A DNA stretch of 60,259 nucleotides, from positions 1-60,259 of the forward strand of contig CASFLY010000104.1 of NCBI GenBank assembly GCA_949295645.1, written 5' to 3'. Positions 15,615 to 35,096 of this stretch are shown one piece after another (the stretch's first letter is position 1; every line of letters begins with the position of its first letter). The DNA is from an uncultured Bacteroidales bacterium (GTDB lineage Bacteria > Bacteroidota > Bacteroidia > Bacteroidales > UBA932). Under the pieces are notes generated by a model. It saw only the letters and a program-made list of their open reading frames with translations, made no database searches and was not told the origin of the DNA. The translations under genes were made by a program, and so were the position numbers.

Positions 15615-15737
15615 CCGGTGCGTCGGAACGGGCTATCTGCTGCGTTCTTTCGGGAATCGGGTTTGGTCATTTACGGAAGTAAACTCCCGGCGCCCTCTCC
15701 CTCAGGGCCTTGCATCTTACCCGTTCTGACGTACCGG
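15615..15737. repeat. Structured intergenic repeat, copy A
   Basis: An 18-bp outer stem joins 15615-15632 with 15720-15737 (two G-T pairs). Inside is a hairpin TTTAC (15670-15674), loop GGAA, GTAAA (15679-15683). Between the stems are CTGCTGCGTT and CCTTGCATCTTACCC. Copies B (34978-35096) and C (27913-28034) share this layout with different stem sequences. Lies in the leader of clpB, ending a few bases from its ribosome binding site. Confidence 0.75.
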
Positions 15738-15786
15738 CGTTATCAATAATATATACGGCCAAGCCGTCTGCATAATATATACAGCC

Positions 15787-15818
15787 ATAGCCGTCTGCCC
15801 TTGCGGACAAACGGCTAT
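15787..15818. other. 14-bp hairpin with 4-base loop between clpB and secG
   Basis: Arms 15787-15800 and 15805-15818 pair over 14 bp (two G-T), loop TTGC (GCAA read on the minus strand). The preceding 26 bases are part of a near-direct repeat, AATATATAC(G/A)GCCA(A/T)AGCCGTCTGC, at about 15747-15797. It follows secG on the minus strand and may end or stabilise its transcript; no T run follows. Confidence 0.5.
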
Positions 15819-15906
15819 CGTCAAAATATATTCCGATCAGATAATGACTGCCAAAATGTCAGTCTTCGGTAACTTGGAAAAACACGGGCTGCGCCGCAGG
15901 CCGGAA

Positions 15907-16275
15907 TTATTCAGCCTCTGCAGCAGGCGCCTCCTGGGCCGGAGCTTCCTGAGCAGGAGCCCCCTGTACAGGAGGGAACTGAGGCCGGCTTTCCTCAATG
16001 GAACGCTCTATCTGGTCCGTGACATCCATCCCGCCCTTTGTGTTTCCCGTAGTGACGAAAGAAGAAACGATGGCCACCACAAACACGAAAGCGACGAGGC
16101 CCCAGGTGATCTTTTCAAGAATATCGGCAGTCTGACGCACGCCGAAAGTCTGGTTGCCGGCAGCAAAGTTGCTGGCAAGTCCGCCTCCCTTGCTGTTCTG
16201 AAGCAGAACCACTATTGTAAGGAATACGCTTGCGATTATTATAAGTACTGCCAGAATCGTAAAAACCACATTCAT
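15907..16275 (-). CDS. secG: Preprotein translocase subunit SecG
   Basis: 122 residues. SecG is the small subunit of the SecYEG inner-membrane channel. Two transmembrane helices (about residues 3-25 and 55-77) flank the conserved LLQNSKGGGLASNFAAGNQTFG stretch. The cytoplasmic tail is extended and contains repeated PAQEAPAQEAPA, as in other Bacteroidetes SecG proteins. It sits 15 nt after the TPR-like gene in the usual Bacteroidetes order (regulator, lptE, TPR, secG). Confidence 0.95.
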   Translation of the reverse strand: MNVVFTILAVLIIIASVFLTIVVLLQNSKGGGLASNFAAGNQTFGVRQTADILEKITWGLVAFVFVVAIVSSFVTTGNTKGGMDVTDQIERSIEESRPQFPPVQGAPAQEAPAQEAPAAEAE

Positions 16276-16290
16276 AATTATCCTGAAATT

Positions 16291-16896
16291 TTAATATTCC
16301 CGTTCAAGTTTTCGTATAAGGGCTGCAAAGTAAGCATTTTTTTCCGGATATGCCAAACTTAGTTTCGAATAAATCTTCCTGGCCTGTTCCGGATAACCCT
16401 GCTCTGCATATATCTGCGCTAAAGTTTCCGTGTAGAACTCCGGCATTTCGTCGGACGGGCTGCCGCTGTCGGCACAGACGGCATCTTCATTATTATATTT
16501 GACGGATTTCCGGAAAGCCCCGTCTTCCGGACGCTTCACCGTATCGTACTGCTCCTGCGAAAAATAGTCGCCGCCGACCACGAAGACCTTTCTTCCGCCA
16601 GGCTCCCGCCCATCCTGCCGTACGGCATCCCCCGCAATATACGACTTCAGCAAAGCTTCTATATCCTTGTCAGAGCAGTCTCCGCCATTCTTTTTGCGGA
16701 CGATCCCGGAAAGCGCCTTCCGGGAAGAGACGTACATCGACGCGTCGGCAAGCGCCGCAGCAGCCGTCTCCCCGTCACCCATTGCAGCAAGCCGCACGCA
16801 AAGCTCCTTGCGGGCATTGCCGAACCAGGGATAAAGGTTCACGACCCCGACCAGTTCGTCGAGCGTGAGTGTCTTGAGATTGATGTATCCTCCCAT
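16291..16896 (-). CDS. TPR-like hypothetical protein of the lptE-secG cluster
   Basis: 201 residues, no signal peptide. N-terminal segment NLKTLTLDELVGVVNLYPWFGNARKELC and the C-terminal TPR-like helix pair (ETLAQIYAEQGYPEQARKIYSKLSLAYPEKNAYFAALI) are what is usual for the protein found between lptE and secG in Bacteroidales. Function unknown. It starts 3 nt after the lptE stop, so the two are translationally coupled. Confidence 0.75.
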   Translation of the reverse strand: MGGYINLKTLTLDELVGVVNLYPWFGNARKELCVRLAAMGDGETAAAALADASMYVSSRKALSGIVRKKNGGDCSDKDIEALLKSYIAGDAVRQDGREPGGRKVFVVGGDYFSQEQYDTVKRPEDGAFRKSVKYNNEDAVCADSGSPSDEMPEFYTETLAQIYAEQGYPEQARKIYSKLSLAYPEKNAYFAALIRKLEREY

Positions 16897-16899
16897 ATC

Positions 16900-17418
16900 C
16901 TACCATTGCGCCACCGTGGCATTGAAAATATCCTCCACGAGCTTGTCTATGATTTCCTCGCACAGACCGGCCTCTACCGCATCGAGAGCCTGGGTGGCGT
17001 CGAAATCCGCGTATGCCGAGAAAGACTGCTCGAGGTTGTCTTCCGGGTATTTGTTGTTTGTAAAATAGATTTTCACATTGACGGTAAGCCTGTTCTGCGC
17101 AGCCACCTCGTCTGCCGTAATACCCATCGCCTTGACATCGTAGCCGATGATTTCCCCGACTATGTCGAGATCTCCTTCCTCGTCGACCTGCTCAAGCCGC
17201 GTCAGCCTGCGGAACTGGTCTTTAAGGGCTTCCGTGAGTTCGTTGCTCAGAGTAGGGTTCACCCTCAGGGCCTTGTATTCGAAATAGTGGATATTTACCG
17301 TATTCACGTCCGGCTGGATGGAGGTTCCTGAAAACGAATATATTCCGCAGGAGCGGACGATGAATGCGGTTGCCGCCAGCGAAACGATGAAAACTATTGC
17401 AGATATTGTTCTTTTCAT
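16900..17418 (-). CDS. lptE: LptE-family LPS-assembly lipoprotein
   Basis: 172 residues. Leader ends at Cys24 (FIVRSCGIYSFSGTSI); the CGIYSFSG start after the cysteine is typical of Bacteroidetes LptE. LptE plugs the LptD barrel that inserts lipopolysaccharide into the outer membrane. The rest is a single alpha/beta domain with VNIHYFEYKA and VNVKIYFTNNK strands. Downstream of the sigma-54-type regulator by 30 nt. Confidence 0.88.
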   Translation of the reverse strand: MKRTISAIVFIVSLAATAFIVRSCGIYSFSGTSIQPDVNTVNIHYFEYKALRVNPTLSNELTEALKDQFRRLTRLEQVDEEGDLDIVGEIIGYDVKAMGITADEVAAQNRLTVNVKIYFTNNKYPEDNLEQSFSAYADFDATQALDAVEAGLCEEIIDKLVEDIFNATVAQW

Positions 17419-17448
17419 ATTCTGAAGGTCTCGCGACCGATAGTTTAC

Positions 17449-18753
17449 CTATTCTTCCAGTGTCTTGAGTTTCCGGTAAAGCGTCCTCTCAGAAATCCCG
17501 AGCTCTTCGGCGGCCTGCTTCCGGTTCCCGTGGTATTTGGCCAGTGCCCTCTTTATCATTTCGAACTCCTGCTTTTCCAGCGACAGCGTCTCTCCCGTCT
17601 GCTCCTCCGGCTCCGTGTTCTCCTTGACCACCTCTCCGGCCTGCTGCTCCTCCGGCTCTTCCTCCCGGCGCGTATATATTCCCGGGCCGCCCGCCGGATC
17701 CATATCCCGGGAGTCGTTTCTTCCGATGATGTGTCTCTGCATCCGGTCTTCAGCTCCCCCTATCAGCGCCGCCGCTCCGGATGCCGGCCCCGCGCCCTTG
17801 CCCGGATCAGCATTCACTATGGATTTCAGATAGTCCACATCCTGCTTCAGCTGATAAATGGTCCGCACCAGCATCTCTTTCTCAGACGGGGAAAATGCGT
17901 CGTCGTTCTGCTCGGCCTTTATCGGCAACAGGTTCGGCTCGTCTTTCGGAATGTATCTGGACAGGGTGGCGGCATCTATCACCCGCCTTTCACTTCCCGG
18001 CGTCGCCTTTACGGATTCTATTGCCGAAACCGTCTCCGCGACATTTTTCAGCTGTCTGATATTTCCCGGCCACCGGTAACTTTTCAACAAGGCCACCGCG
18101 TCATCGGCGAGGGTTATTTTCACCATATTATACTTAAGGGCGAAATCAGACGCGAATTTCCTGAACAGGAGGTGGATGTCATCCTTCCTGTCTCTCAGGG
18201 CCGGCATCAGGATCGGCACGGCATTCAGCCTGTAGTACAGGTCCTCCCGGAACTTTCCCCGCGACACGGCATACTGCAGGTTCACATTCGTGGCCGCCAC
18301 GACCCGGACATCCGTCTTCAGAACCTTCGACGACCCCACGCGGATGAACTCTCCCGACTGCAGCACCCTCAGCAGCTTGGCCTGGGACGGCAGCGGCAGC
18401 TCCCCGATCTCGTCGAGGAAAAGAGTCCCTCCGTCAGCCTCTTCGAAATAGCCGCGCCGCATCTCGTTCGCACCCGTAAAGGCGCCCTTTTCATGCCCGA
18501 AGAGTTCCGAGTCGATGGTTCCTTCCGGAATCGCGCCGCAGTTTACGGCGAAGTATTTTCCCGTTCGCCTGAGACTGTTCTGGTGTATGATCTTGGGAAT
18601 ATTTTCCTTTCCGACCCCGCTCTCGCCGCTGATAATGACGGTAAGATCGGTAGAGGCTACCGCGACGGCGATTTCCAGAGCCCTGTTCAGAGCCTGGTCA
18701 TTGCCGATTATGTCGAACTTGTTCTTTAGTGTCTGTAACTCCTGTGTCGTCAT
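17449..18753 (-). CDS. Sigma-54-type AAA+ transcriptional regulator without receiver domain
   Basis: 434 residues from ATG 18753 (an upstream TTG is less likely). The AAA+ domain begins almost at once: Walker A GESGVGKE (43-50), the GAFTGA loop that contacts sigma-54 (90-95), GGTLFLDEIGE, and RWPGNIRQLKN. There is no N-terminal sensory domain. A variable linker rich in Pro, Glu and Gly precedes the C-terminal Fis-type helix-turn-helix (GNRKQAAEELGISERTLYRKL). First gene of the cluster running to secG. No sigma-54 promoter (GG-N10-GC type) could be recognised nearby. Confidence 0.93.
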   Translation of the reverse strand: MTTQELQTLKNKFDIIGNDQALNRALEIAVAVASTDLTVIISGESGVGKENIPKIIHQNSLRRTGKYFAVNCGAIPEGTIDSELFGHEKGAFTGANEMRRGYFEEADGGTLFLDEIGELPLPSQAKLLRVLQSGEFIRVGSSKVLKTDVRVVAATNVNLQYAVSRGKFREDLYYRLNAVPILMPALRDRKDDIHLLFRKFASDFALKYNMVKITLADDAVALLKSYRWPGNIRQLKNVAETVSAIESVKATPGSERRVIDAATLSRYIPKDEPNLLPIKAEQNDDAFSPSEKEMLVRTIYQLKQDVDYLKSIVNADPGKGAGPASGAAALIGGAEDRMQRHIIGRNDSRDMDPAGGPGIYTRREEEPEEQQAGEVVKENTEPEEQTGETLSLEKQEFEMIKRALAKYHGNRKQAAEELGISERTLYRKLKTLEE

Positions 18754-18759
18754 ATCCCG

Positions 18760-18767
18760 CAAAGTTA
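18760..18767 (-). promoter_or_regulatory. -7 promoter box for the sigma-54-type regulator operon
   Basis: TAACTTTG on the minus strand (CAAAGTTA as printed). It ends 6 nt before the ATG at 18753, so transcription would start at or very near the start codon, implying a leaderless or nearly leaderless mRNA. No clear -33 element is seen. Confidence 0.45.
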
Positions 18768-18862
18768 CTAAAACCCGCGGATTTCCACGCAGGGCGGAAG
18801 TTTTTTTTGCCCATAGCGTAAAATTATCCCGATATTTGTTAGAAGTTATTTGAACAATTTCT

Positions 18863-18870
18863 TATATTTG
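18863..18870 (+). promoter_or_regulatory. -7 promoter box for the OmpA-like lipoprotein
   Basis: TATATTTG, a perfect Bacteroidetes -7 box, 90 nt before the start codon. A TTTG at 18835-18838 lies 24 nt upstream, slightly further than the usual 19-21. Confidence 0.65.
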
Positions 18871-18959
18871 TCGGAAATTGGTCAAAAAGCGGCGGGGAGA
18901 CGAACTCCGCCGGACCGATCGGTAAAACCGGCAAAACAAACCATTAAATATCGAACACG

Positions 18960-20600
18960 ATGAAAAAAAGTTTCAAAATCCTTTCTTCTGCCGTGTTGGG
19001 ATTGGCTGCCGTAGCCTGCAGCTCTCCTGAAAAAATGGCGGAAATGGCGGAAAACGTAGGTGTAACATGCGATCCTGCCGTACTTGAAGTCGTTGCCGGC
19101 AAGATAGATGCAACGGTTTCCGTGACTTATCCTGCTGACTATTTCCATCCGAAAGCCATCCTTGAGGTCACTCCTGTTCTCGTTTACGAGGGCGGCGAAG
19201 CCAAGATGGATCCATTCACATATCAGGGTGAAGACGTAAAGGACAACTACAAAGTCATTCCTTCCGAAGGCTCTACAGTTACCGAGAAAGTAAGTTTCGA
19301 CTATGCTCCGGGAATGGAGAAGAGCTACCTTGAACTCCGCGGTGTGGTGAAATACAAGAACAAGGCTGTCGAAATGCCTACCAAGAAAGTCGCTGACGGT
19401 GCCAACACCACCTACATGCTCGTGAACAAGAACGGCAAGGCAGACTACAAGGCAGACAGCTACCAGGAAATCATCAAACAGACAGCCGAAGGACAGATCC
19501 TTTACACCATAAACAGCTCGGTGGTAAGGAACAGCCAGCTTTCTTCCGAATCCATCAAGAACTTCCAGGCAGCCATCGACGAAATCAACGCAAATGAGCG
19601 CAAGGAAATCGTCAGCACCGACATCGTGGCATACGCTTCGCCTGACGGAGGAGAAGAGCTGAACACCAAGCTTTCCGGCAAACGTTCGGAAACGGCCGAG
19701 AAGGCATTCGGCAAGGTGACCAAGAAACACGAGGTCGAGGCACCTGTAAACGTGACCAGCGTAGGTCAGGACTGGGAAGGCTTCAAAGAGCTCGTTTCAG
19801 AGTCCGACATCGAAGACAAGGATCTGATCATCCGCGTTCTTTCCATGTACAGCGACCCTGCAGTCCGCGAACAGGAAATCAAGAATATGTCTGCCGTTTA
19901 CCAGGCACTCAAGAAAGAGATCCTTCCTGAGCTCCGCCGTGCAAGGTTCATCGCCAACGTCGAGTTCACGAACTACTCCAACGAAGAGCTCATCGCCCTT
20001 ATCGATGAAAACATCGACATCCTCGACGAAGAGGCTCTGCTCCGCGCGGCTTCCGTAGTGAAAGACAATGCTTCCAAGATAGAAATCTACAAGAAGGCCA
20101 TTGAGAAATACGGCAGCGCCCGCGCCCAGTACAACCTTGCAGTCGCATACATCGACTCTGACGACCTCGCAAATGCGAAGGCAGCCCTTGCAAAGGCTGA
20201 AAAGGATGCTGACTGGCAGAACGCTATGGGAGTCATCGCTCTCAGGGAAGGTGACACCGCCGCCGCTGCAAAATACTTCGCAGCTTCAGGCAATGCCACT
20301 TCCACCGAGAATGCAGCCGTTCTCGACATCCTCAACGGCAAATATGCCGATGCTGCCGCCAAACTCGCTTCCGCTGACAACAGCGCAAACAAGGTTCTGG
20401 CCTGCATCCTTGCCGGACAGCTCGACAAGGCTTCTGCAGCCGCTACCTGCGAGTGCGCCGAAGTTTCCTATCTGAAAGCCATCATCGCCGCACGCCAGGG
20501 CAATGCAGACGATGTCAAGAAGTACATCGATGCAGCAAGCAAGGACAAGGCCCTTGCGGAAAGGGCTACGAAGGATATCGAATTTGCCCAGTACAAATAG
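18960..20600 (+). CDS. OmpA-like / TPR lipoprotein
   Basis: 546 residues. Leader ends at Cys20 (AAVACSS). Residues 25-165 form a beta-rich domain; residues 175-260 resemble an OmpA-type segment (SSESIKNFQAAIDEI, AYASPDGGEELNTKLSGKRSETAEKAF); then come TPR-like helices from about 365 on (YGSARAQYNLAVAYIDSDDLANAKAALAKAEKD). Its layout parallels the fimbrial-operon protein at 9611-11890, including SPDG and a Pro-x-Leu-Arg helix (EILPELRRARF against DYLPKLRSIQY). Codon choice suggests high expression. Own promoter and a strong terminator: monocistronic. Confidence 0.75.
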   Translation: MKKSFKILSSAVLGLAAVACSSPEKMAEMAENVGVTCDPAVLEVVAGKIDATVSVTYPADYFHPKAILEVTPVLVYEGGEAKMDPFTYQGEDVKDNYKVIPSEGSTVTEKVSFDYAPGMEKSYLELRGVVKYKNKAVEMPTKKVADGANTTYMLVNKNGKADYKADSYQEIIKQTAEGQILYTINSSVVRNSQLSSESIKNFQAAIDEINANERKEIVSTDIVAYASPDGGEELNTKLSGKRSETAEKAFGKVTKKHEVEAPVNVTSVGQDWEGFKELVSESDIEDKDLIIRVLSMYSDPAVREQEIKNMSAVYQALKKEILPELRRARFIANVEFTNYSNEELIALIDENIDILDEEALLRAASVVKDNASKIEIYKKAIEKYGSARAQYNLAVAYIDSDDLANAKAALAKAEKDADWQNAMGVIALREGDTAAAAKYFAASGNATSTENAAVLDILNGKYADAAAKLASADNSANKVLACILAGQLDKASAAATCECAEVSYLKAIIAARQGNADDVKKYIDAASKDKALAERATKDIEFAQYK

Positions 20601-20618
20601 CGATATCGCGAATACTTG

Positions 20619-20657
20619 AAAAAACGGTCCTGAAACTATTTTTGGGACCGTTTTTTT
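20619..20657 (+). terminator. Rho-independent terminator of the OmpA-like/TPR gene
   Basis: AAAACGGTCC (20621-20630) pairs perfectly with GGACCGTTTT (20645-20654), loop of 14, followed by more T. Confidence 0.92.
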
Positions 20658-20722
20658 AGAACTGACAAATAGACGGACAATGATTCTCGGCGACATGAAT
20701 TCGTCGAACTGACGTTAAGACT

Positions 20723-23011
20723 ATGAGCAATATCACGAAAGAAGAGGCCCTGCTCTATCATTCACAGGGAAAACCGGGCAAAATCGAGGTCGTTCCGACC
20801 AAACCGCACAGCACCCAGAGAGATCTGTCGTTGGCTTACTCCCCCGGAGTGGCCGAACCGTGCCTCGAAATAGAAAAGAATCCCCACGACGCATACAAAT
20901 ACACGGCAAAAGGGAATCTGGTAGCCGTCATCTCCAACGGCACCGCCGTCCTCGGGCTCGGTGACATAGGAGCCCTCGGAGGAAAGCCGGTAATGGAGGG
21001 AAAGGGCCTGCTGTTCAAGATTTATGCGGGCATCGATGTCTTCGATATCGAAATAGATGAAAAGGATCCCGACAAATTCGTGGAAACGGTCAAGGCCATC
21101 GCCCCGACATTCGGAGGCATCAACCTCGAAGACATCAAGGCTCCGGAATGCTTCGAAATCGAGCGCAGGCTCAAGGCGGAACTCGACATCCCGGTCATGC
21201 ATGACGACCAGCACGGTACGGCCATCATTTCAAGCGCCGGTCTTCTGAACGCCCTGGAGGTCGCCGGAAAGAAAATCGGAGATGTCAGGATAGTGGTCAA
21301 CGGGGCAGGAGCCTCGGCCATTTCCTGCACGAGCCTTTACGTGGCCCTCGGCGCGAAAAAGGAAAACATCATCATGCTCGACAGCAAGGGCGTGATCACA
21401 TCTGACAGACCGGATCTGACCGAACAGAAAAAGATGTTCGCTACCGACAGACGCGACGTACACACTCTGGCGGAAGCCATAAAGGGAGCCGACGTATTTC
21501 TCGGACTTTCCAGGGGCAATGTCCTTACTCAGGATATGGTCCGCAGCATGGCCAAATCCCCGATCGTATTCGCCCTTGCCAACCCCGTTCCGGAAATCAG
21601 CTATGAGGATGCCATGGCCTCCCGCGACGATGTCCTGATTTCCACAGGCCGGTCCGACTATCCGAACCAGATAAACAATGTCATCGGCTTCCCGTACATT
21701 TTCCGCGGAGCATTGGACGTGAATGCCTCGGCCATAAACGAAGAGATGAAGCTTGCCGCCGTACACGCCATCGCCGACCTGGCAAAGAAGCCGGTACCCG
21801 ACATCGTGAACGAAGCCTACAAGGTCAACAACTTCACTTTCGGCCCGGACTACTTCATTCCCAAACCGGTCGACCCGCGGCTCATCACTGATGTGTCCAT
21901 CGCCGTTGCCAAGGCGGCCATGGCTTCCGGAGTGGCCCGCAAGGAAATCACCGACTGGAATGCCTACAGAGAGCATCTGAAAGAGCTGATGGGTTTCGAA
22001 TCCGAATTCATCCGCCAGCTCTACACCACGGCAAGGACCGATCCGCAGAGAGTCGTTTTCGCCGAGGGCAACCACCCGAACATGATCAAGGCTGCAGTGG
22101 AGGCACGTGCCGAGGGAATCTGCCGCCCGATTCTGCTCGGGAACGATGAAAGGATTGCAAAAATAGCCCGCAAGCTGGAGCTCAGTCTCGAAGGGGTCGA
22201 AATCGTCAACCTCAGACATGACAACGAATCGGCCCGGAGGGAAAGATATGCGCATATCCTGGCCGAGAAACGCGCCCGCGAAGGGGCTACATACGACGAG
22301 GCCTGCGACAAGATGTTCGAGCCGAACTATTTCGGCATGATGATGGTCGAGACAGGCGATGCCGATGCTTTCATCACCGGCACCTACACAAAGTACAGCA
22401 ACACCATCAAGGTGGCCAAGGAAGTCATCGGCATCCGCCCGGGGCTGAGCCATTTCGGGACCATGCACATAGTCAACTCGAAAAAAGGCACGTATTTCCT
22501 CGCAGACACCCTCATCAACAGGCATCCGGACACCAGGGCCCTGATAGACATCGCCCTGCTCGCAGACCACACCGTCAAGTTCTTCAACCACGAACCGGTA
22601 ATGGCTATGGTTTCCTATTCGAACTTCGGCGCGGACACGGCAGGCAGTCCCAAGACCGTGCATGAGGCCGTGGACTATATCCAGAGAGAACATCCTGAAA
22701 TCATGCTCGACGGCGAGATGCAGGTGAACTTCGCTCTCGACGACCAGCTCAGGGACCGCAAGTTCCCGTTCAACAAGCTGAAAGGCAAGATAGTGAACAC
22801 CCTGCTCTTCCCGAACCTCAGCTCGGCGAACTCCGCATACAAGCTGATTCAGGCGATGAGCGATGCCGAAATGATCGGGCCTATCCAGATGGGGCTGAAC
22901 AAGCCTGTCCATTTCACCGACATCGAAAGTTCGGTGCGGGACATCGTGAACATCACGGCAGTCGCCGTTCTTGACGCCATCGTCATGAAAAAATTAGAGA
23001 AAAAAGGCTGA
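20723..23011 (+). CDS. maeB: NADP-dependent malic enzyme with phosphotransacetylase-like domain
   Basis: 762 residues, the length of MaeB-type fusions. The N-terminal half (to about 430) is malic enzyme: oxidative decarboxylation of malate to pyruvate and CO2 with NADP. Seen are [36 protein letters not shown] and the nucleotide-binding [11 protein letters not shown]. The C-terminal half ([15 protein letters not shown] onward) is a phosphotransacetylase-like domain that regulates the enzyme in MaeB and probably lacks PTA activity. It converges on mdh, so two malate enzymes are neighbours. Confidence 0.95.
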
Positions 23012-23052
23012 GACAACAGTGAATCTGCCGCTTTCGCAGCCTGCGCTGCCGA

Positions 23053-23095
23053 ACAATAAAAGACCGGCCCGAAATCGGAGCCGGTCTTTTATTGT
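23053..23095. terminator. Bidirectional terminator between maeB and mdh
   Basis: A perfect 15-bp stem joins 23053-23067 with 23081-23095; the arms hold AAAAGACCGG and CCGGTCTTTT, so a T-rich tract follows on either strand. It serves both convergent genes. Confidence 0.92.
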
Positions 23096-23164
23096 CGATT
23101 ATCCGTAAGAATCCCCCTTTCCGCGCCATCTCGATGGAGACGGTGCAATCGGGGATCCTGCTTG

Positions 23165-24160
23165 TTACAGATTCGGATTCACAGTCTTCCAGTCTGCCAC
23201 AGCAGGGATGATGCCGAGGGAAATGATCTCGTCGCGCATCTTGCAGAGATGTTCGTAAGAAGCGTCGAGAGCCGCCATTTCTTCAGCCGTACCGTGCACA
23301 TCCGTGTAGTGGACGCCCGAAGCATCGATGACAGTAGGCATAGCCATCATCACGTTGTGGTACTTGGAAGTATTCACATAGCAGCCGGCAGGCCAGTTGA
23401 ACGGTTTGCCGCCCATAGCCGCCGCAATCATCTCGATAGAAACGTATGCCGGGCTCTGGAATGAAGAACGGCCCCTGAGCTCGATGATCTTCTTTCCGCC
23501 CTGGATCACGTCTCCCTTGATTTCATCCCATCTTACCAAAGGCAGCTCGTTGCCGAGAAGTTCCGTAAACGGCTTGCCGTCGATTTTGGCCTCGGATGCG
23601 AATACCGCCATCTGCTCGCCATGTCCTCCGTAGGTGTGGCAGCCCGTCACCTTGCACTGCTGCACGCCGAACTGCTGGGCGAGAGCGCTCTGGAGCCTGG
23701 TGGAATCGAGGGCCGCAAGGGTCGTGAGCTGAGACGGCTTCAAGCCTGAATGAAGCAGGGTTACAAGGCCGGTCAGGTCTGCCGGATTGAAGATGATTAC
23801 GACATGTTTCACGTCAGGGCAGTAAGCCTTGATGTCTTTTCCGAGCTGCTCTGCGATTTCGCAGTTGCCTTTCAGAAGGTCTTCGCGGGTCATTCCCTGC
23901 TTGCGTGGCGCCCCGCCGGAAGAAACCACGTATTTCGCTCCTGTCAGGGCCTCCTTTATATCGTCCGTATAAGTGATTTCGGCTCCGTCGAAAGCACAAT
24001 GATAAAGTTCTTCCGCTACGCCTTTGAGACCCTGGGCAAAAGGATCGTAAAGACAGAGATTCGGGGTAAGTTTCATCATCATGGCTGTCTGGGCCATATT
24101 CGACCCGATCATACCGGCTGCGCCGATGATGGTCAATTTATCATTTGTCAAGAAATCCAT
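23165..24160 (-). CDS. mdh: Malate dehydrogenase
   Basis: 331 residues from ATG 24160 (MDFLTNDKLTIIGAAGMIGSN); the longer frame adds 12 unlikely residues. Interconverts malate and oxaloacetate with NAD. The nucleotide-binding loop GAAGMIGSN, the substrate/catalytic segments GMTREDLLKGN, FNPADLTGLV, LAALDSTRLQ and the catalytic-His segment CHTYGGHGEQMAVF are present. This is the Bacteroidales-type enzyme, a lactate/malate dehydrogenase family member used in the reductive branch to succinate. Confidence 0.95.
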   Translation of the reverse strand: MDFLTNDKLTIIGAAGMIGSNMAQTAMMMKLTPNLCLYDPFAQGLKGVAEELYHCAFDGAEITYTDDIKEALTGAKYVVSSGGAPRKQGMTREDLLKGNCEIAEQLGKDIKAYCPDVKHVVIIFNPADLTGLVTLLHSGLKPSQLTTLAALDSTRLQSALAQQFGVQQCKVTGCHTYGGHGEQMAVFASEAKIDGKPFTELLGNELPLVRWDEIKGDVIQGGKKIIELRGRSSFQSPAYVSIEMIAAAMGGKPFNWPAGCYVNTSKYHNVMMAMPTVIDASGVHYTDVHGTAEEMAALDASYEHLCKMRDEIISLGIIPAVADWKTVNPNL

Positions 24161-25702: not shown

Positions 25703-27910
25703 ATGGTAAAATTTGTAATAAAACGGGACGGGCGTATTGTCGACTTCGATAAAAGAAAAATCGTAGATGCCGTATTGAAGGCAATGGACGTCACGGAAGA
25801 AGGCGAAGACATCGTGCTTGCGGCGGAGATAGCTGCTGCCATAGCCAAAATCGACACGGAAAGCATGAGCGTGGAAGACATCCAGGACCATGTGGAGATG
25901 GAACTGATGAACAGCCCGCGCAAGGAAGTTGCAAAGAAGTACATCGCATACCGTAATCAGAGGAACCTGGCGAGAAAGGCAAAATCGCGCGAGATTTTCA
26001 AGGAAATCATCGAAGCCCAGGCGACTGACGTGACCCGCGAGAACGCGAACATGAATGCCGACACGCCGGCCGGAATGATGATGAAGTTCGCATCCGAATC
26101 CACCAAATCGTTCGTGGACGAATGCCTGCTGTCGGAAGACGTGAAGGAGGCCGTGCAGAACGGGTACATCCATATCCACGACAAGGACTACTACCCAACA
26201 AAGAGCCTCACCTGCGTCCAGCATCCGCTCGACAGGATTCTGAAAAACGGATTTTTCGCAGGACACGGAGAATCCCGCCCGGCCAAAAGGATAGAAACGG
26301 CCAGCATCCTCGGCTGCATCTCGATGGAGACTGTCCAGAACGAGATGCACGGCGGCCAGGCCATTCCGGCATTCGACTTTTACATGGCGCCGTTCGTAAG
26401 GCGTACCTTCCACGAAGAACTCGACAAGCTCGGCGATATCCTCGGCCAGGACTTCAGCCATCTGAAAGACATCCAACTCGATGACTACATAAAGAGAGAC
26501 CTCCTTGGAATCCAGGGTGAGGAAAGGGTCATCCAGCATGCCGTAAACATGACCGTCAGCCGCGTCCACCAGTCGATGGAGGCTTTCGTACACAATATGA
26601 ACTCCATTCACTCCCGCGGAGGGAACCAGGTGGTTTTCAGCTCCATAAACTACGGCACGGACACCTCTGCCGAAGGACGCTGCGTCATCAGGGAGATCCT
26701 GAACACGACCTACGAAGGCGTCGGGAACGGCTCCACAGCCATCTTCCCTATCCAGATATGGAAAAAGAAACGCGGAGTCAGCTACCTGCCCGAAGACAAG
26801 AACTACGACCTGTACAAGTTCGCCTGCAAGGTGTCCGCAAGACGTTTCTTCCCGAACTTCCTCAACCTCGACGCCACGTTCAACCAGCACGAGCTGTGGA
26901 GGGAGGACGATCCGGAAAGATACCAGTACGAAGTGGCCACGATGGGCTGCCGCACGAGAGTGTTCGAAAACAGGTTCGGCCCAAAGACTTCCATCGGCAG
27001 GGGCAACCTTTCCTTCACCACGATAAATATCGTAAGGTTGGCCATCGAATGTATGAAAGAGCCTGACCAGAACAAAAGGATACAGATGTTCTTCGAAAAG
27101 TTGGACTGGGCGTTGAACGTCACCGCCAAGCAGCTCTGCGAAAGATACGACTTCCAGAAGACCGCGATGAAAAAGCAGTTCCCTCTGCTGATGGGAGCCC
27201 TCTGGTTGGGAAGCGAAAATCTAAAGGAAGAGGACACTATCGAGTCCGTCATCAACCAGGGCACCCTCGGAATCGGATTTATCGGACTTGCGGAAGCCCT
27301 GATCGCCCTCATCGGGAAACATCACGGAGAGTCGGAAGAAGCCCAGGCCCTCGGACTGAGGATAGTTTCATATATGAGGGACAAGGTCAACGAGTTCTCT
27401 GAAAGGTACCAGCACAACTTCAGCGTCCTCGCCACACCGGCAGAAGGCCTCGCCGGGCGGTTCACCAAGATGGACAAGAAGAAATTCGGCATAATACCGG
27501 GAGTCACCGACAAGGAATACTACACGAACTCGAACCATGTTCCTGTCTACTACCACTGCACGCCTAAGCACAAGGCCGAAGTCGAAGGCCCTTACCACGC
27601 ACTGACGGGCGGCGGACATATTTTCTACGTGGAAATCGACGGGGACGCCACACACAATCCTGAAGCCATAATGGCAATTGTGGATCTGATGGACAAGTAC
27701 AACATGGGGTACGGTTCGGTCAACCACAACCGCAACCGCTGTATGGACTGCGGCTTCGAAAATGCCGATGCGGATCTTGAGGAATGCCCTAAGTGCCACA
27801 GCCACAACATCGACAAACTGCAGCGGATTACCGGATATTTAGTCGGGACGACGGCAAGGTGGAACAGCGCCAAGCTCGCCGAGCTTAAAGACCGCGTCGT
27901 CCACAAATAA
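25703..27910 (+). CDS. nrdD: Anaerobic ribonucleoside-triphosphate reductase
   Basis: 735 residues. Oxygen-sensitive glycyl-radical enzyme that reduces NTPs to dNTPs. An N-terminal ATP-cone (VIKRDGRIVDFDKRKIVDAV) is the allosteric site. The core carries NSIHSRGGNQVVFSS and MGCRTRV. Four cysteines near residues 680-700 (CMDC, CPKC) bind zinc, and the C-terminal glycyl-radical motif is RITGYLVG with Gly at about 711. nrdG, its activase, follows after 135 nt that hold structured repeat copy C. Confidence 0.97.
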   Translation: MVKFVIKRDGRIVDFDKRKIVDAVLKAMDVTEEGEDIVLAAEIAAAIAKIDTESMSVEDIQDHVEMELMNSPRKEVAKKYIAYRNQRNLARKAKSREIFKEIIEAQATDVTRENANMNADTPAGMMMKFASESTKSFVDECLLSEDVKEAVQNGYIHIHDKDYYPTKSLTCVQHPLDRILKNGFFAGHGESRPAKRIETASILGCISMETVQNEMHGGQAIPAFDFYMAPFVRRTFHEELDKLGDILGQDFSHLKDIQLDDYIKRDLLGIQGEERVIQHAVNMTVSRVHQSMEAFVHNMNSIHSRGGNQVVFSSINYGTDTSAEGRCVIREILNTTYEGVGNGSTAIFPIQIWKKKRGVSYLPEDKNYDLYKFACKVSARRFFPNFLNLDATFNQHELWREDDPERYQYEVATMGCRTRVFENRFGPKTSIGRGNLSFTTINIVRLAIECMKEPDQNKRIQMFFEKLDWALNVTAKQLCERYDFQKTAMKKQFPLLMGALWLGSENLKEEDTIESVINQGTLGIGFIGLAEALIALIGKHHGESEEAQALGLRIVSYMRDKVNEFSERYQHNFSVLATPAEGLAGRFTKMDKKKFGIIPGVTDKEYYTNSNHVPVYYHCTPKHKAEVEGPYHALTGGGHIFYVEIDGDATHNPEAIMAIVDLMDKYNMGYGSVNHNRNRCMDCGFENADADLEECPKCHSHNIDKLQRITGYLVGTTARWNSAKLAELKDRVVHK

Positions 27911-27912
27911 AT

Positions 27913-28034
27913 CCGGTTTGCAAGAGCAGGCAATCTGCGGCGTTACGCAAGTCTCGGAAATCCTCACATACAACAGTATGCTCCGGTGTTCCTCGACTTG
28001 TGTGCCTTGCATCTTACCCACTCTTGCAAACCGG
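27913..28034. repeat. Structured intergenic repeat, copy C
   Basis: Perfect 14-bp outer stem: CCGGTTTGCAAGAG (27913-27926) with CTCTTGCAAACCGG (28021-28034). Inner hairpin CATAC (27967-27971), loop AACA, GTATG (27976-27980). Shares the internal blocks (AATCTGC.GCGTT and GCCTTGCATCTTACCC) with copies A and B while both stems differ in sequence yet remain paired. Fills the nrdD-nrdG spacer. Confidence 0.8.
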
Positions 28035-28045
28035 CATCCCAATGA

Positions 28046-28564
28046 ATGCAAGGTATGACAAGTATAAGGATATTGGATATTCTGGAGGAGACCATGGCCG
28101 ACGGCCCCGGTCTCCGTACTGCAATATACTGTGCTGGATGCGCCCATCACTGCCCCGGTTGTCACAATCCGCAGTCCTGGGATTTCAACGGCGGGCATGA
28201 GGCCAGTGTGGACGAACTTCTGGACATCGTGAAATCCGACGAATTCAGCAACGTGACATTCACCGGCGGAGACCCGCTCTACCAGGTGGAGGCATTCACC
28301 GAACTGGCCCGCAGGATCAAGGAGGAGACCGGCAAGACCATCTGGTGCTATACCGGCTTCACATACGAGGAAATACTGGAAGACGAAAAGATGTCACGGA
28401 TCCTGCCGTACATAGACGTACTCGTGGACGGGCCTTTCGTTCAGGAACAGAGAGATCCGGAACTGCTGTTCCGCGGCAGCGCGAACCAGCGCATCATCTA
28501 TCTGCACGGGAATCCGGATGAAGATGTCATCCCCGGGACTGTGGAGACAATACGGCCGAAATAA
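28046..28564 (+). CDS. nrdG: Anaerobic ribonucleotide reductase activating protein (radical SAM)
   Basis: 172 residues (ATG 28055, three codons later, is an equally good start). Uses S-adenosylmethionine and a 4Fe-4S cluster to make the glycyl radical on NrdD. The cluster motif CxxxCxxC is C32-AHH-C36-PG-C39, and FTGGDPL is the SAM-binding GGxP segment. Its last 38 nt overlap, tail to tail, the end of the gene on the other strand. Confidence 0.95.
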   Translation: MQGMTSIRILDILEETMADGPGLRTAIYCAGCAHHCPGCHNPQSWDFNGGHEASVDELLDIVKSDEFSNVTFTGGDPLYQVEAFTELARRIKEETGKTIWCYTGFTYEEILEDEKMSRILPYIDVLVDGPFVQEQRDPELLFRGSANQRIIYLHGNPDEDVIPGTVETIRPK

Positions 28565-29984: not shown

Positions 29985-30019
29985 TTGTCTTTTCTTTTAA
30001 TCTTCAAGCCCTGAGGCTT

Positions 30020-31207
30020 TTACTTCCGCAGCCAGGTCTCCGGGTTCTGAGGCTTGTTCCCTTGCCAGATCTGGAAATGCAGCTGCGTCTCCCCGTTGAT
30101 AGTATCCACCGTACCTATCTTCTGCCCCGTCTTCACTTTGTCGCCGGCCTTGACCGACGTGGATTTCAGCTTGCAATAGAACGAGAAATAGTTTCCATGC
30201 TGCACCAGGACACACTGGTTGTATCCCGGCATCACCACTATCTGCTTCACCGTCCCGTCGAACACGGCATTTACTCCGGCCCCTTCCGGAAGCGCTATCG
30301 AAATCCCGTTGTTGAACGGCAGCTTTACGTTGGTAAACACCGGATGATAGTGCTGTCCGAAACGGTCCACCACAACCCCGTCCGCCGGCCACGGCAGCCT
30401 GCCTTTGTTTTTCGAGAACTCCTCCGCGAGCCTGTAGTCGATTTCCGTTTTGCCGTCTTTCCCTTTCGAGGCTTTCATCGCCGCTTCTATGATCTTCTGT
30501 ATCTCCCTGTCCAAGGCCTCCACCTGACGTTTTTTCGAAGCCAGCTCCTTCTGGTATCTGGCCTTGTTCCGCTTCAGGTCGGACACGATTTTCTCCGCTT
30601 CCGCCTCCTCTTTCTGCAAGGCAGCCAGTTCCGCCTGCCGTTCCGCCCTGACCTCTTCTGCCCCGGCCTTCAATTTCCGGAGCCTCGCTTTCTGCTCCTC
30701 CAGCTCTTCTCTGGCATCCTTTATTTTCCCGGCCTGGGCCCGGGTCTCGGCCGACAGATTCTTGAAGTAGCTGTAGCGGCGGAATGCCTGGCCGAGATCT
30801 TCGCTCGCCAGGATGTACATATACCACAGGCGGGCGTCACGGTTCTTATAGGCGTTGAGAATCAGCCTTTCATAATAGGAAGAAAGGGTGTCGAGCCTCG
30901 CGTTCAGCCTGTTTATCTGCCTTTGTGTCAGGTATATGTCATCGGAATACCTTCTGATCTGACGGTCGCTCTCCTTTATCAGGGCCCTTCTGCCCGAGAT
31001 TTTTGTACGCACGAGGGTCAGACGGGAAAGTTCGCTCCTGCTCCTGCTCGCATTTTCGGAGAGCTGCCTGTCTAAAATCCCGATTTCCTTCTCCAGCCGG
31101 GCCTTCCTTTCCTCGTATTCACGTGTGTCCTGAGCCAGGAGCGGCATGGCCGTACCGAGCACGGAAAAAAACAGAATCGCAGGAATTATGATGCGGGAAA
31201 ACTTCAT
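30020..31207 (-). CDS. EnvC-like murein-hydrolase activator (degenerate M23 domain)
   Basis: 395 residues with a signal peptide (ends near LLAQ). A long coiled coil (about 20-250) precedes a C-terminal LytM/M23 fold. Two zinc-binding positions have been lost: NNGISIAL stands where active enzymes have HxGxD, and GETQLHFQIW keeps only one of the HxH histidines. Like EnvC it probably activates amidases during cell division instead of cutting peptidoglycan itself. Start overlaps the upstream TPR gene by 4 nt (ATGA). Confidence 0.87.
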   Translation of the reverse strand: MKFSRIIIPAILFFSVLGTAMPLLAQDTREYEERKARLEKEIGILDRQLSENASRSRSELSRLTLVRTKISGRRALIKESDRQIRRYSDDIYLTQRQINRLNARLDTLSSYYERLILNAYKNRDARLWYMYILASEDLGQAFRRYSYFKNLSAETRAQAGKIKDAREELEEQKARLRKLKAGAEEVRAERQAELAALQKEEAEAEKIVSDLKRNKARYQKELASKKRQVEALDREIQKIIEAAMKASKGKDGKTEIDYRLAEEFSKNKGRLPWPADGVVVDRFGQHYHPVFTNVKLPFNNGISIALPEGAGVNAVFDGTVKQIVVMPGYNQCVLVQHGNYFSFYCKLKSTSVKAGDKVKTGQKIGTVDTINGETQLHFQIWQGNKPQNPETWLRK

Positions 31208-32925
31208 TCGGAATCCTTTTTTATACAGCTTTTGCGCTCGCTTATCTTCTTGTCCAGATCAGGAATCTCGCCGTTGTTGATGGCCTTGGCCTTGTTCCAG
31301 TACAGGAGGGCAAGATCATACTCTTTCAGGGCGAAAAGCACTTCCGCATAATGGTCCAGAATCACGGGGCTGTCTTTCCCTCCGTAAAGCATAACGGCGT
31401 TCTTGAAGAACGGCTTCGCCTCAAGAGCCTTGCCCTGCAGGAACAGTATCCAGCCGAATGTGTCGAGATATGTGGAGTTGTCCGGATCTTTTTCTACGGT
31501 CTTCTTGCTCATTGCGTAGGCCTTCTTGAGCTTCCTGTTGTCCATGCTCAGGAAATAGGCGTAGTTGTTCAGGACGGGGAGATAGTCGGGATTGATTTCC
31601 AGGGCCTTGTCATACGCCTTATAGGCTTTTTTCTTCTCCCCGAGCTTATAGTACATATCCCCCATGGTAGTATAGGAATTCAGAACGACCGCACTGTCGT
31701 CCGGAGCCATTTCGAGCAGTTCTCCGCAAATTTCTATCACACGGCCGTAATTTCCGAGATTGTACTCCCCGAGGCTGGCGTACTCCCGGAAAGCCGTCTC
31801 CGACGGGAATTTCCCTGCCGCCTTTTCCGCCTCGTCCACCAGGGCCTGCCAGTCATTGGTGTACATCAGCATTTCCACGTATGAAGCTGCGGCGGCGATG
31901 CTTTCCGGCCAGTATTCCACATTGGCCCTGAAACTGGACTTTGCCTTGGGATAATCCCCTTTGGAGTAATAATATATCCCCGACATCAGGTTTACGGAAG
32001 AATCTCTCGGGTATTTGCCGCTGCATATGTTGACCAGAGAATCCATCTGCGTCCCGAATATCCTGAAAAACTGCTTGTCCGCGGACCGTATCAGTGCGTT
32101 CAGATAGCCGCATTTCCCCTCCACGGGGATATTGTCATTGTCCACAAAACCGTACAGGACATCGAAGTAGCTGTCATAGTCGCGCGCGATTCTGTACGTC
32201 TCGGCCTTTCCGAGGATGGCCGGTGCGTATGACGGGTCGATGTCAAGGGCTTCGTCGTAAAGGCTCAGGGCAGAAGAATCGTTGTACATGGACAACTGTC
32301 TGTCCCCGAGAATGGAAAGCACCTGGACAGAGGAGTATTTCCTGTTGAAGTCCTCCAGGTACCCATAGCCTTCATCTTCCCGGCCCATTTCCCTGAGCAG
32401 GTCGAAACGGGCAAGGGCGGTCATGTCGCTGCTTCCGAACACCGTTTCTATCTGGTCGAGCGTAGAGAGGGCCTTTTCCTGCTGGCCCTGGCTCCTGTAC
32501 AGTTCGACCATCGTATAGTACAGATCGTATTTTTTCGGGAAATCCTCGACCATTTCCTCGAACATCTTCAGGGTCAGTTCTTCCTTACCCGTAGCGGAAT
32601 AGACCATCGCAAGCCTGTAACGGTACCAGAAATTGGACGGATCCAGCCTTGCGGCCTCTTCGAGTTCCGCCTCTGCCGCATCGGCATCGTTCAGACAGAA
32701 TTCGGTCAGCCCGAGGTAAAAATGGCCGGCGTCATTGTCGGGGAACTCCCTGACCACGTCTTTCAGAATGGATTCGGCTTTCGTGAATTCCCCGTTATTA
32801 TAATAGTCCGCTGCCGTTATTATCATATTCTCCGCAACCCTTGTCTTCTGATCCTCGGCCTGCAGCGCGATGACGGAACAGAGCAGACAGGAAAGCGAAA
32901 GTATGGTCGTAAAAAATCCGCGCAT
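31204..32925 (-). CDS. Secreted tetratricopeptide-repeat protein
   Basis: 573 residues with a signal peptide (ends near LQAED). At least eight TPR-like helix pairs are visible, e.g. NNGEFTKAESILKDVVREFP, AEAELEEAARLDPSNF and KAYKAYDKALEINPDYLPVLNNYAYFL. Probably a periplasmic scaffold. Placement ahead of an EnvC-like gene is common in Bacteroidetes, where a DUF4292 gene often stands between; none is here. Confidence 0.85.
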   Translation of the reverse strand: MRGFFTTILSLSCLLCSVIALQAEDQKTRVAENMIITAADYYNNGEFTKAESILKDVVREFPDNDAGHFYLGLTEFCLNDADAAEAELEEAARLDPSNFWYRYRLAMVYSATGKEELTLKMFEEMVEDFPKKYDLYYTMVELYRSQGQQEKALSTLDQIETVFGSSDMTALARFDLLREMGREDEGYGYLEDFNRKYSSVQVLSILGDRQLSMYNDSSALSLYDEALDIDPSYAPAILGKAETYRIARDYDSYFDVLYGFVDNDNIPVEGKCGYLNALIRSADKQFFRIFGTQMDSLVNICSGKYPRDSSVNLMSGIYYYSKGDYPKAKSSFRANVEYWPESIAAAASYVEMLMYTNDWQALVDEAEKAAGKFPSETAFREYASLGEYNLGNYGRVIEICGELLEMAPDDSAVVLNSYTTMGDMYYKLGEKKKAYKAYDKALEINPDYLPVLNNYAYFLSMDNRKLKKAYAMSKKTVEKDPDNSTYLDTFGWILFLQGKALEAKPFFKNAVMLYGGKDSPVILDHYAEVLFALKEYDLALLYWNKAKAINNGEIPDLDKKISERKSCIKKDSE

Positions 32926-32950
32926 TTGTCATCCTTGTATCAAATCTTTA

Positions 32951-32958
32951 CAAAAATA
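32951..32958 (-). promoter_or_regulatory. -7 promoter box for the TPR-envC-like operon
   Basis: TATTTTTG on the minus strand, 26 nt before the start at 32925. Confidence 0.55.
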
Positions 32959-32971
32959 GCATAAAAAGAAT

Positions 32972-32979
32972 TATCTTTG
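32972..32979 (+). promoter_or_regulatory. -7 promoter box for the sigma factor operon
   Basis: TATCTTTG, perfect consensus, 95 nt before the GTG start at 33074. It is back to back with the minus-strand box at 32951. Confidence 0.6.
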
Positions 32980-33073
32980 AAAAAATTGCGACACAGATGC
33001 AACATTCATTCGTGCTGGGGCATCTTTTACGCGCAGGTTGAACGAAGAATAACTGTTATTTGGAGACGACGCT

Positions 33074-33631
33074 GTGAACGAGACCTTGGAGCAAAGGACG
33101 ATCGAACTATGCAAAAAAGGGGACAGAGCTGCTCAGAAGGCCTTATTTGACCTGCTGGCACCTCGCATGTATCCTGTCTGCATCAGGTATGTCGGCGACA
33201 GGGAGACAGCGCAGGATATCCTGCAGGACGGGTTCGTGACGTTGTTTTCGAAACTCGGCTCCTATAAGGGAGAAGGGTCGTTCGACGGATGGGCGCGGCG
33301 TATCTTCATCAATACTGCCCTGATGTATCTCAGGAAAAAAGACGCGTTGAAAATGAGCGATGATCTCGAAAATGCGAGGCATCTGAGTTCCGATGTTGCC
33401 GGACAGATGGAAAATATCGGGTACAAGGAACTTATGAAATTAGTGACCTCGCTGCCTCCCGGATTCAGGACCGTTTTCAATATGTATGTCATAGAAGGGT
33501 ATTCGCACAAGGAAATCGCGGAAATCCTCGGCATCACCGAGACTACATCGAGGACGCAGCTGAGCAGAGCCCGGATATGGCTGCAGAACAGGATCAAAGC
33601 AGGAAACGATGGAAAAGGAAGACGGAAATAA
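33074..33631 (+). CDS. ECF-type RNA polymerase sigma factor
   Basis: 185 residues from a GTG start. Region 2 (RDAQDILQDGF-like segment TAQDILQDGFVTLFSKLGSY, GWARRIFINTA) and region 4 (TSLPPGFRTVFNMYVIEGYSHKEIAEILGITETTSRTQLSRAR) are both present, with a normal helix-turn-helix. The next gene overlaps its end by 23 nt and encodes a membrane-anchored protein that is likely its regulator or output. Confidence 0.92.
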   Translation: MNETLEQRTIELCKKGDRAAQKALFDLLAPRMYPVCIRYVGDRETAQDILQDGFVTLFSKLGSYKGEGSFDGWARRIFINTALMYLRKKDALKMSDDLENARHLSSDVAGQMENIGYKELMKLVTSLPPGFRTVFNMYVIEGYSHKEIAEILGITETTSRTQLSRARIWLQNRIKAGNDGKGRRK

Positions 33632-34979
33632 ATTGTTCGATTCTCAGATTCGCTCTATTTTGGGCGATGCGCGGGAAGATGTTCCCGGGCATCTCTGGTA
33701 TGGAATAGAGCGGCGTCTTTCTGCCATGGAAAGTATTGCCGGCGGATCGGAGACGACCGGACCGGCAGAGGAGAAAGACCGGAGAAGGACGGTGACGGTT
33801 CCGTTCTGGACGAAGGTGGCCGGCAGCGTGGCGGCGGCAGCGGCTGTTGCGGCCGGGATGTTCCTGTCCGGGACGTTCGACGGAGCGGTCTCAGAGAGGC
33901 AGTATGACCGGATGGCGGAAGTGTCCGGAAATATCGGCATCATACGGGAGGACGGGCTCCACGACATTCGGATGACAGACGTGCCGGCGCCGGAAATGCT
34001 GAAGGATATGCTCAGGCCTGCGGACAAGGCCGGAAATGAAGACATGAGCGGGGATACAGGCTCGGGAGGGAATGAAACCGATGCCGCCGGACCGGTATCC
34101 GCAGCGGATGGAATTCCGTCAACGGAACAGAAAGAGGCCGGGGATTCCGGCGATGGCAGCAACGGCAGCAATGACGGCAACGGCACGGCGGCTCCGGCAG
34201 AAAGACCAGTTTCCGGCGATGTTTCCGAAGATACAGGTGCGTCCGCAGATACCGGTATCTCAAAAGAGGATGCGGCGCAGTGGGAAATGCTGCTGAGGGA
34301 AGAGGAAAATCGTCAACGGCAGGGAGTGAAGACTTCGTTTACGGTGTCGGGCAATGCGATCAGCAATACGAACGCCTCGGTGTCGAACAACAGTCCTGCC
34401 ATTATGTACAGTCCGGGGCGTAACGAGCCGTCAAAGGATATGGTGACCGAATCGAGCGAATCGTCCTATGCGATTCCGGTTTCCGCCGGGCTCGGAGTCA
34501 AGGTGGATTTCACCAGGAGGTGGTCGGCCAGCATCGGAGTGAACTATTCGCTGCTCCGCAGGACATTCGACGGGACATTCTATGATGTCCGGGACGACGG
34601 CGTGCACACCAGCGATTTCTCAGGAATAGTAAACAGGCAGGACTACATAGGTATTCCGGTCAATGTCTATTTCAGCATATTGAAAAGCAATATCATAGAC
34701 TTTTACGCCTACGCGGGCGGCACTGCCGAGAAATGCGTATCCAATGTCTACAGGATGTCGTCCGACGGGGCCGACATAAACCATCGAGAGTCCGTAAAAG
34801 GTATGCAGTTCTCTGCAAATGCGGGTATCGGAATGGAATTCATCATCGCCGATCTGGTCGGCATCTATATCGATCCGAGTCTGCGCTATTATTTCCCTGA
34901 CGACAGGCAGCCGCGAAGCATAAGGACGGTGCAGCCGTTGATGTTTGGGGTGGAGTTGGGGTTCCGCTTCCATCTCTGA
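33609..34979 (+). CDS. Membrane-anchored protein with C-terminal outer-membrane beta-barrel domain; sigma partner
   Basis: 456 residues. The cytosolic N-terminus (about 1-65) is short and charged, as in anti-sigma factors (LFDSQIRSILGDAREDVPGHLW). One transmembrane helix, rich in Ala/Val, lies at about 68-88. A long Gly/Asp/Ser/Glu-rich linker (about 130-265) leads to a domain with porin-like strands (PVSAGLGVKVDFTRRWSASIGVNYSLL, then FGVELGFRFHL at the C-terminus). One chain could link the inner membrane to the outer. The stop codon lies inside repeat copy B. Confidence 0.72.
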   Translation: MEKEDGNKLFDSQIRSILGDAREDVPGHLWYGIERRLSAMESIAGGSETTGPAEEKDRRRTVTVPFWTKVAGSVAAAAAVAAGMFLSGTFDGAVSERQYDRMAEVSGNIGIIREDGLHDIRMTDVPAPEMLKDMLRPADKAGNEDMSGDTGSGGNETDAAGPVSAADGIPSTEQKEAGDSGDGSNGSNDGNGTAAPAERPVSGDVSEDTGASADTGISKEDAAQWEMLLREEENRQRQGVKTSFTVSGNAISNTNASVSNNSPAIMYSPGRNEPSKDMVTESSESSYAIPVSAGLGVKVDFTRRWSASIGVNYSLLRRTFDGTFYDVRDDGVHTSDFSGIVNRQDYIGIPVNVYFSILKSNIIDFYAYAGGTAEKCVSNVYRMSSDGADINHRESVKGMQFSANAGIGMEFIIADLVGIYIDPSLRYYFPDDRQPRSIRTVQPLMFGVELGFRFHL

Positions 34980-35096
34980 TTCGCCGGAACGGGCAGTCTG
35001 CTGCGTTGCGGGCGGATTCTGACTTGGTCATTTACGAAAGTAAACTCCCGGCGTCCTCACCCTGGCGGCCTTGCATCCTGCCCGTTCTGACGAATC
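34978..35096. repeat. Structured intergenic repeat, copy B
   Basis: Outer 19-bp stem of 34978-34996 with 35078-35096 (one mismatch, one G-T). Inner hairpin TTTAC (35031-35035), loop GAAA, GTAAA (35040-35044). The 5' arm begins in the stop codon region of the preceding gene. Closely similar to copy A inside, unlike it at both ends. Confidence 0.8.

Follow-up and report, generated by a model that had tools for sequence, protein, structure and literature searches.

The window analyzed here, a stretch of 60,259 nucleotides (contig CASFLY010000104.1) from an uncultured Bacteroidales bacterium with a genome of 2.31 Mb (G000), contains three copies (A, C and B) of a long hairpin. These hairpins are probably non-autonomous mobile DNA elements of the miniature inverted-repeat transposable element (MITE) type. 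They belong to a multi-copy family which is patchily distributed across the order, possesses a conserved core between covarying arms and, in two genomes (G391 and G237), is bounded by terminal inverted repeats and duplications of 5-6 bp. Several genomes harbor 50-110 copies of this large repeat class, for which no published description came to light in one open-access library. Overall, the evidence favors a DNA element over an RNA gene.

Terminal repeats and target duplications

In G391 and G237, a unit of 174-176 bp is bounded by the 12-bp terminal inverted repeats GAGACTGTTGCA and TGCAACAGTCTC. Direct repeats of 5-6 bp lie flush with the ends at 28 of 40 fetched copies, one of the 40 being a 372-bp relative, compared to 1.8% with shuffled flanks. 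By a second, tolerant test, duplications were detected at 29 of 39 copies, where 2.0 were expected. The left repeat is identical to that of the Porphyromonas gingivalis elements ISPg4 (IS5 family) and MITEPgRS/MITE464, given as GAGACTGTTGCA in Table 2 of PMC4596501, while each of their right repeats differs at one of 12 positions. Due to the terminal inverted repeats, the target duplications and the ISPg4-like left end, the hairpin is, at least in G391 and G237, a MITE-type element whose arms are the terminal repeats. MITEPgRS/MITE464 resembles it in being non-autonomous and present in many copies. MITE464 differs, however, by its 41-nt tandem repeats, and the available part of that paper describes no such core hairpin. 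An element of 372 bp (L541) shows the same GAGACTGTTGCA ends; its interior is made up of recurring short palindromes, and a long open frame is absent.

In G325, duplications were recognized by eye at four of five loci, two of them at bare hairpin ends, and by script at three of five (1.0 expected). In the window copies the stem arms themselves are the inverted repeats, and their sequences are other than those of ISPg4 and MITE464. Around a similar core, other lineages likewise possess different ends (AGAGGCTGTCTATAAAG; GTGTGTCATAA with a tail ending in TTTTGACACA; GGAACGAAT), which suggests, as far as sequence comparison goes, that different transposases may have been used.

Copy number and distribution

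An exact 16-base pattern has just three matches in the genome, namely copies A, B and C, and the family therefore looked small. A preliminary description of the window, made from its sequence alone, had proposed a search with a covariance model and had named a lack of additional copies as grounds for rejecting its reading. The model, built from 14 hairpins, revealed 51 matches in the same genome (48 with stricter filters) and 25, 8, 110, 96, 7, 37, 30 and 100 matches in eight others. Seven of these genomes were reached through records bearing the name Bacteroidales, Porphyromonadaceae or Pullibacteroides, the eighth through a record called just 'bacterium'. Additional copies thus exist, both in this genome and in many other Bacteroidales. 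All copy numbers are lower bounds, since at most 150, 58 or 9 candidates were scored per genome, depending on the survey. Within the genus, three of 37 genomes were positive, the genome of the window with 48 copies, G029 with 23 and G032 with one. Two further members of the genus were weakly positive (G073, three matches; G416, one match) in an even draw across the order, in which 97 of 393 genomes and 66 of 206 genera gave matches when nine candidates were scored per genome. The one-contig genome G391 carries 22 copies; 70 were counted in G325, 16 in G362, 19 in G400, 41 in G161 and 86 in G268. Near-identical copies of a subfamily occupy separate sites within genomes. Plasmid and phage collections contained no match to one subfamily copy (L258). 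Most matches outside the Bacteroidales and 50 viral stretches look like chance matches to the 16-base pattern; the sole viral stretch that passed a loose hairpin filter (L157) lacks the architecture when inspected by eye.

At one orthologous site in three species (L301, L321, L342), the number of tandem units is one, two and four. As the unit number differs at this site, these hairpins are prone to tandem duplication.

Architecture and covariation

The copies were originally placed at 15615-15737 (A), 27913-28034 (C) and 34978-35096 (B). Each of them folds as a single hairpin, and the covariance model gives the same coordinates within 2 nt. Typical copies have an outer stem and, next to the block CTGC.GCGTT / GCCTTGCATC, a short stem, together with middle stems that vary and an inner hairpin of the form NNTAC-4 nt-GTANN, which is flanked by TCA and CTCC. 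Overall, the length ranges from 123 to 176 nt, with about 123 nt in the window type and the upper values in G391 and G237. The internal blocks said to be common to A, B and C are indeed present, and the inner hairpin, TTTAC/GTAAA in A and B and CATAC/GTATG in C, represents a true double change at two pairs. By contrast, the assertion that the outer stems are wholly different was overstated, since A and C have the ends CCGGT/ACCGG in common and A and B have CGGAACGGG/CCCGTTCTGACG in common.

Among 114 distinct rows, double-sided changes were found in 26 of 26 scored pairs. Of the cells, 94.5% were paired compared to 66.9% after shuffling, a percentage that is biased upward since the alignment was fitted to a model of the same structure; some of the aligned rows are related, and a few come from the opposite strand. 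The covariation score was 0.679, compared to 0.172 for shuffled rows and at most 0.102 for slid partners. The covariation that the preliminary description had asked to be tested is thus present and pairing is maintained, as had been claimed. What is not supported is the view of covariation as a mark of structured RNA or of base-by-base compensation, since neither a preference for G-U nor stepwise double changes were observed (see below).

The earlier failure to recognize a named RNA family agrees with the Rfam comparison, in which no family was found for the hairpins. At the gathering cut-off the window yields only a tRNA, and at E<=1 the hairpins of 15 loci gave only a thiamine pyrophosphate (TPP) riboswitch-like match of 49.5 bits, which is below the family cut-off; it overlaps the end of one copy on the other strand (L234:2043-2233). 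Conserved flanks are absent (at most 0.09 bits of information per position). One copy of G029 (L217) contains a longer perfect stem (GTTCCGGCAGATTTTAAAATCTGCCGGAAC) in place of the inner hairpin.

Wobble pairs and folding

RNA stems are generally expected to tolerate G-U over A-C. If the RNA fold were what maintains the family, G-U should be tolerated far more often than A-C; such a preference was not seen. From 118 rows, 80 were left after redundancy and gap cuts, and two opposite-strand rows were then dropped. The count covered the 26 consensus pairs of the outer and inner stems, with the middle stems left out. The resulting 78 non-redundant rows revealed 1859 Watson-Crick, 30 G-U, 62 A-C and 45 other cells. 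As a control, the acceptor and T stems were counted in 27 tRNAs of these loci, with the best-pairing trim of each tRNA end, and gave 296 Watson-Crick, 26 G-U, one A-C and one other cell. This difference (p = 1e-9) persists when the functional strand is assumed to be the opposite one (G-U 62 versus A-C 30; p = 0.002). Thus, the interpretation as RNA fails the wobble test. When minimum-energy folds were calculated for each strand on its own, the opposite strand folded better in 63 of 71 copies (36 of 43 in the genome of the window), and G-U pairs in the outer stem numbered 25 on the plus strand versus 61 on the opposite strand. The absence of a wobble preference, with which an effect on translation would still be compatible, speaks against selection on the RNA fold. 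It is customary to regard covariation as the strongest sign that an RNA is functional. A family combining near-complete covariation with no wobble preference in the scored stems and with the behavior of a transposable element constitutes a natural test case for RNA selection versus the maintenance of mirror symmetry at the DNA level.

Turnover of the stems

Among the closely related species G063, G064 and G068, 24 ortholog groups of hairpins were lined up. Eighteen groups could be aligned end to end and contained 47 substitutions: 23 pairs were changed on one side, none on both sides, and 24 changes were unpaired. In the other six groups, blocks of the core or the arms were replaced. The outer stem was kept and the interior differed in L311/L358 and L317/L324, the stems were altogether different in L309/L337, L347/L320, L308/L325 and L330/L359, and L303, which belongs to the same group as L330/L359, is a left/right hybrid. 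Within genomes, 193 pairs with a core identity of at least 85% were found. The 5' arms were at least 80% alike in 68 of these pairs and less than 60% alike in 44, though some of the latter are mis-cut or are tandem units that lack a proper 5' arm. Since stepwise double changes were lacking and blocks were replaced, the stems are exchanged as blocks or rewritten instead of being compensated base by base. One case of arm rewriting was encountered, in which a perfect complement in L307 (position 9685) corresponds to mismatched arms in L354 (2097) and L111 (294). Template switching has been reported to create and maintain hairpins (PMC8794818).

For a mobile DNA element, the outer stem would be the pair of terminal inverted repeats required by a transposase, and the interior would be a conserved core hairpin with fixed asymmetric loops. 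The arms would have to remain mirror images for mobilization, and template switching during replication, which can rewrite one arm from the other, is presumably what keeps them matched. Both together would result in arm sequences that turn over as blocks with the pairing persisting. An enzyme of the kind that acted in G391 and G237 probably also spread the copies of the window in the past, and these presumably persist today as old immobile insertions at the 3' ends of genes.

Position behind stop codons

In G000, G063, G064 and G068, a gene on the same strand has its stop codon within -4 to +6 nt of the 5' end of the hairpin at 56 of 112 non-redundant sites. The corresponding count is 1 of 112 at the 3' end, and 9 of 1120 at random points. 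Genes were called as mechanical open frames, one of which was overlapped by 35 of 149 copies, and 43 of the 51 copies of G000 entered the later analyses after eight short pieces had been dropped. At 81 loci of 42 other genomes, a stop codon was located within -14 to +12 nt of the 5' end in 33 cases and of the 3' end in three; some of these genomes, e.g. G067, show larger distances. There are also copies whose stop codon is provided by the arm itself. Twelve sites could be compared with G029, and by eye the stop was at the homologous codon in eight of them. Of the remaining four, copy A precedes a gene start, L257 adjoins a tRNA, L243 has its stop supplied by the arm, and in L245 the ends of the genes are offset by roughly one codon. 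The divergent copy at L257:1997-2192 starts 2 nt past the tRNA gene rather than past a stop codon. A particular stop triplet was considered as the target. The mix of stop codons is near background (TGA is somewhat rare in G063/G064/G068, p = 0.047), and hence no single triplet is the target. The docking in one orientation poses a testable question, namely by what route a selfish repeat arrives at almost a single nucleotide position or persists there.

Copies of the window and neighboring genes

13462-15597, minus strand: ClpB-type gene, the start of which adjoins copy A
15615-15737, plus strand: copy A, a full hairpin 18 nt before the start of the ClpB-type gene, and an exception to the stop-codon position
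25703-27910, plus strand: nrdD, anaerobic ribonucleotide reductase, with the stop at the same codon as in relatives
27913-28034, plus strand: copy C, full hairpin, starting 2 nt past the nrdD stop codon, an insertion relative to the related genome G029
28073-28564, plus strand: nrdG-type radical SAM protein, downstream of copy C
33609-34979, plus strand: outer-membrane beta-barrel protein gene, terminating within the 5' arm of copy B
34976-35098, plus strand: copy B, full hairpin, its 5' arm including the stop codon of the outer-membrane protein gene upstream
35099-35249, plus strand: degenerate partial units 3' of copy B, with the 5' block again at 35120-35137 and a shorter piece at 35229-35249 (by eye)
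35250-36005, minus strand: ABC transporter ATPase, a convergent gene on the far side of copy B

The nrdD/nrdG junction of G029 reads TAA-AC-ATG, and that of the window TAA followed by the hairpin and a 20-nt tail. The site of copy C is thus empty in G029. In several relatives, nrdD and nrdG overlap or nearly touch. Clean empty sites were not found among G063, G064 and G068, where three candidates turned out to be deletions or replaced cassettes. The fragments next to copy B had been taken as signs of a mobile or decaying family. The segment 35120-35137 is an exact repeat of the 5' block of copy B, tandem partial units accompany other copies as well, and the data support a family that is both mobile and decaying. 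A second sequence of dispersed appearance (TGTCATCCCGAGCG...) is located 3' of copy B at 35150-35190; similar TGTCAT..CGAG text occurs 3' of hairpins in L235 and L246.

Alternative explanations

Several observations weigh against mobile DNA elements. A strict test for duplications was negative at 41 sites of G000 and 69 sites of G063/G064/G068, a result of low sensitivity since it was also negative at the five loci of G325. Outside the ends, the tolerant test scored 1 of 41 sites in G000 (0.9 expected) and 3 of 69 in G063/G064/G068 (1.6 expected); an excess of 9 of 41 given by this test in G000 came mostly from the palindromic CCGG ends themselves. No autonomous element with the ends of the family was detected in the stretches examined, and the one pair of ends 1-3 kb apart in the G391 list represents two separate elements flanking a 420-aa frame without a Pfam match. 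Much of the A-C excess comes from a small number of columns close to the base of the outer stem, and over the whole minimum-energy folds the mRNA-sense (plus) strand has more G-U than the opposite strand (238 versus 167). The core is conserved and has no assigned role. In G391 and G237, docking at stop codons is unclear (5' end 5 of 24, 3' end 1 of 24), with 4 of 24 copies lying within mechanically called open frames. Ordinary transposition does not account for the stop-codon position; either there is a second mode of insertion or only docked copies have survived. It is conceivable, if somewhat doubtful, that the core is a mobile chassis used across the order, which persists and swaps its arms and terminal repeats to ride different transposases, and which in part of the order has a second way of settling behind stop codons, free of duplications and in one orientation. 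The conserved core with its exchangeable arms and the oriented docking behind stop codons appear to be new.

The docking at half of the sites, in one orientation, and the G-U surplus of the mRNA-sense strand would also fit a functional RNA hairpin in the 3' untranslated region, which is kept by selection and stalls ribosomes or blocks exonucleases like the repetitive extragenic palindromic (REP) sequences of Escherichia coli. REPs less than 16 nt from the stop codon have been reported to lower translation there (PMC12306157). Such a function is unlikely, since on the mRNA-sense strand A-C outnumbers G-U, the reverse of the tRNA stems, better folding and a higher number of G-U pairs in the outer stem are found on the opposite strand, and the hairpins are patchily present among relatives. 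Pairing without wobble preference, the better folding of the strand opposite the mRNA, the fixed orientation behind genes and the missing duplication signal in genomes of the G000 type are what would be expected of a folded single-strand DNA site moved behind stop codons by a structure-specific recombinase (attC-like or Y1-type) without target duplication. Nevertheless, a site of this kind is distinctly improbable given the target duplications in G391 and G237, the lack of a Y1 transposase match in 7 of the 12 carrying genomes searched, including the three with most copies, and the lack of an integron integrase above the cut-off in all 21 genomes. Finally, template switching alone might keep immobile host palindromes perfect, in line with its reported action on hairpins and with the arm rewriting seen in L307 versus L354 and L111. 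A core common across the order, dispersed near-identical subfamilies, the empty site and the target duplications make this a very remote prospect.

Comparison with known systems

REPs and their associated tyrosine transposases (RAYT) were rejected as the system at work, both for the distribution of the Y1 family and for size and end tags. Y1 transposase matches were absent from G000, G061-G064, G066 and G068 and present in G029, G065, G067, G045 and G054. Like the hairpins described here, REPs are intergenic palindromes, many of them near stop codons. However, they measure 20-40 bp and are tagged by GTAG or CGTC, the GTAG kind being tied to Y1 transposases (PMC3733652), whereas the present hairpin of about 123 nt has ends such as CCGG, GAGAC and GCGG and lacks the REP tags. 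A reverse transcriptase was likewise dismissed, with no match in G000 and G061-G068 (nine of nine), yet one in G029 and two in G054. Integron attC sites are structure-conserved DNA hairpins behind gene ends and in this respect similar. They were dismissed because no integrase above the family cut-off was found in the 21 genomes, and no cassette array was seen.

The enterobacterial repetitive intergenic consensus (ERIC/RU-1, 127 bp) belongs to the same size class and is also intergenic and MITE-like (PMC2759123), but occurs in other bacteria. The candidate RNAs HMP2_4205, HMP2_1065, HMP2_1032 and HMP2_4078 are palindromes of 80-132 bp which, according to PMC8040213, are mostly or wholly from Bacteroidetes, three of them being predicted terminators. 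Compared by description only, some of these candidates may belong to the present family.

Near position 7872 of L424, which is orthologous to the L243 site, inspection by eye suggests that G029 has a shortened hairpin from a different subfamily in the intergenic space where G000 carries its own, as if the space had been reused.

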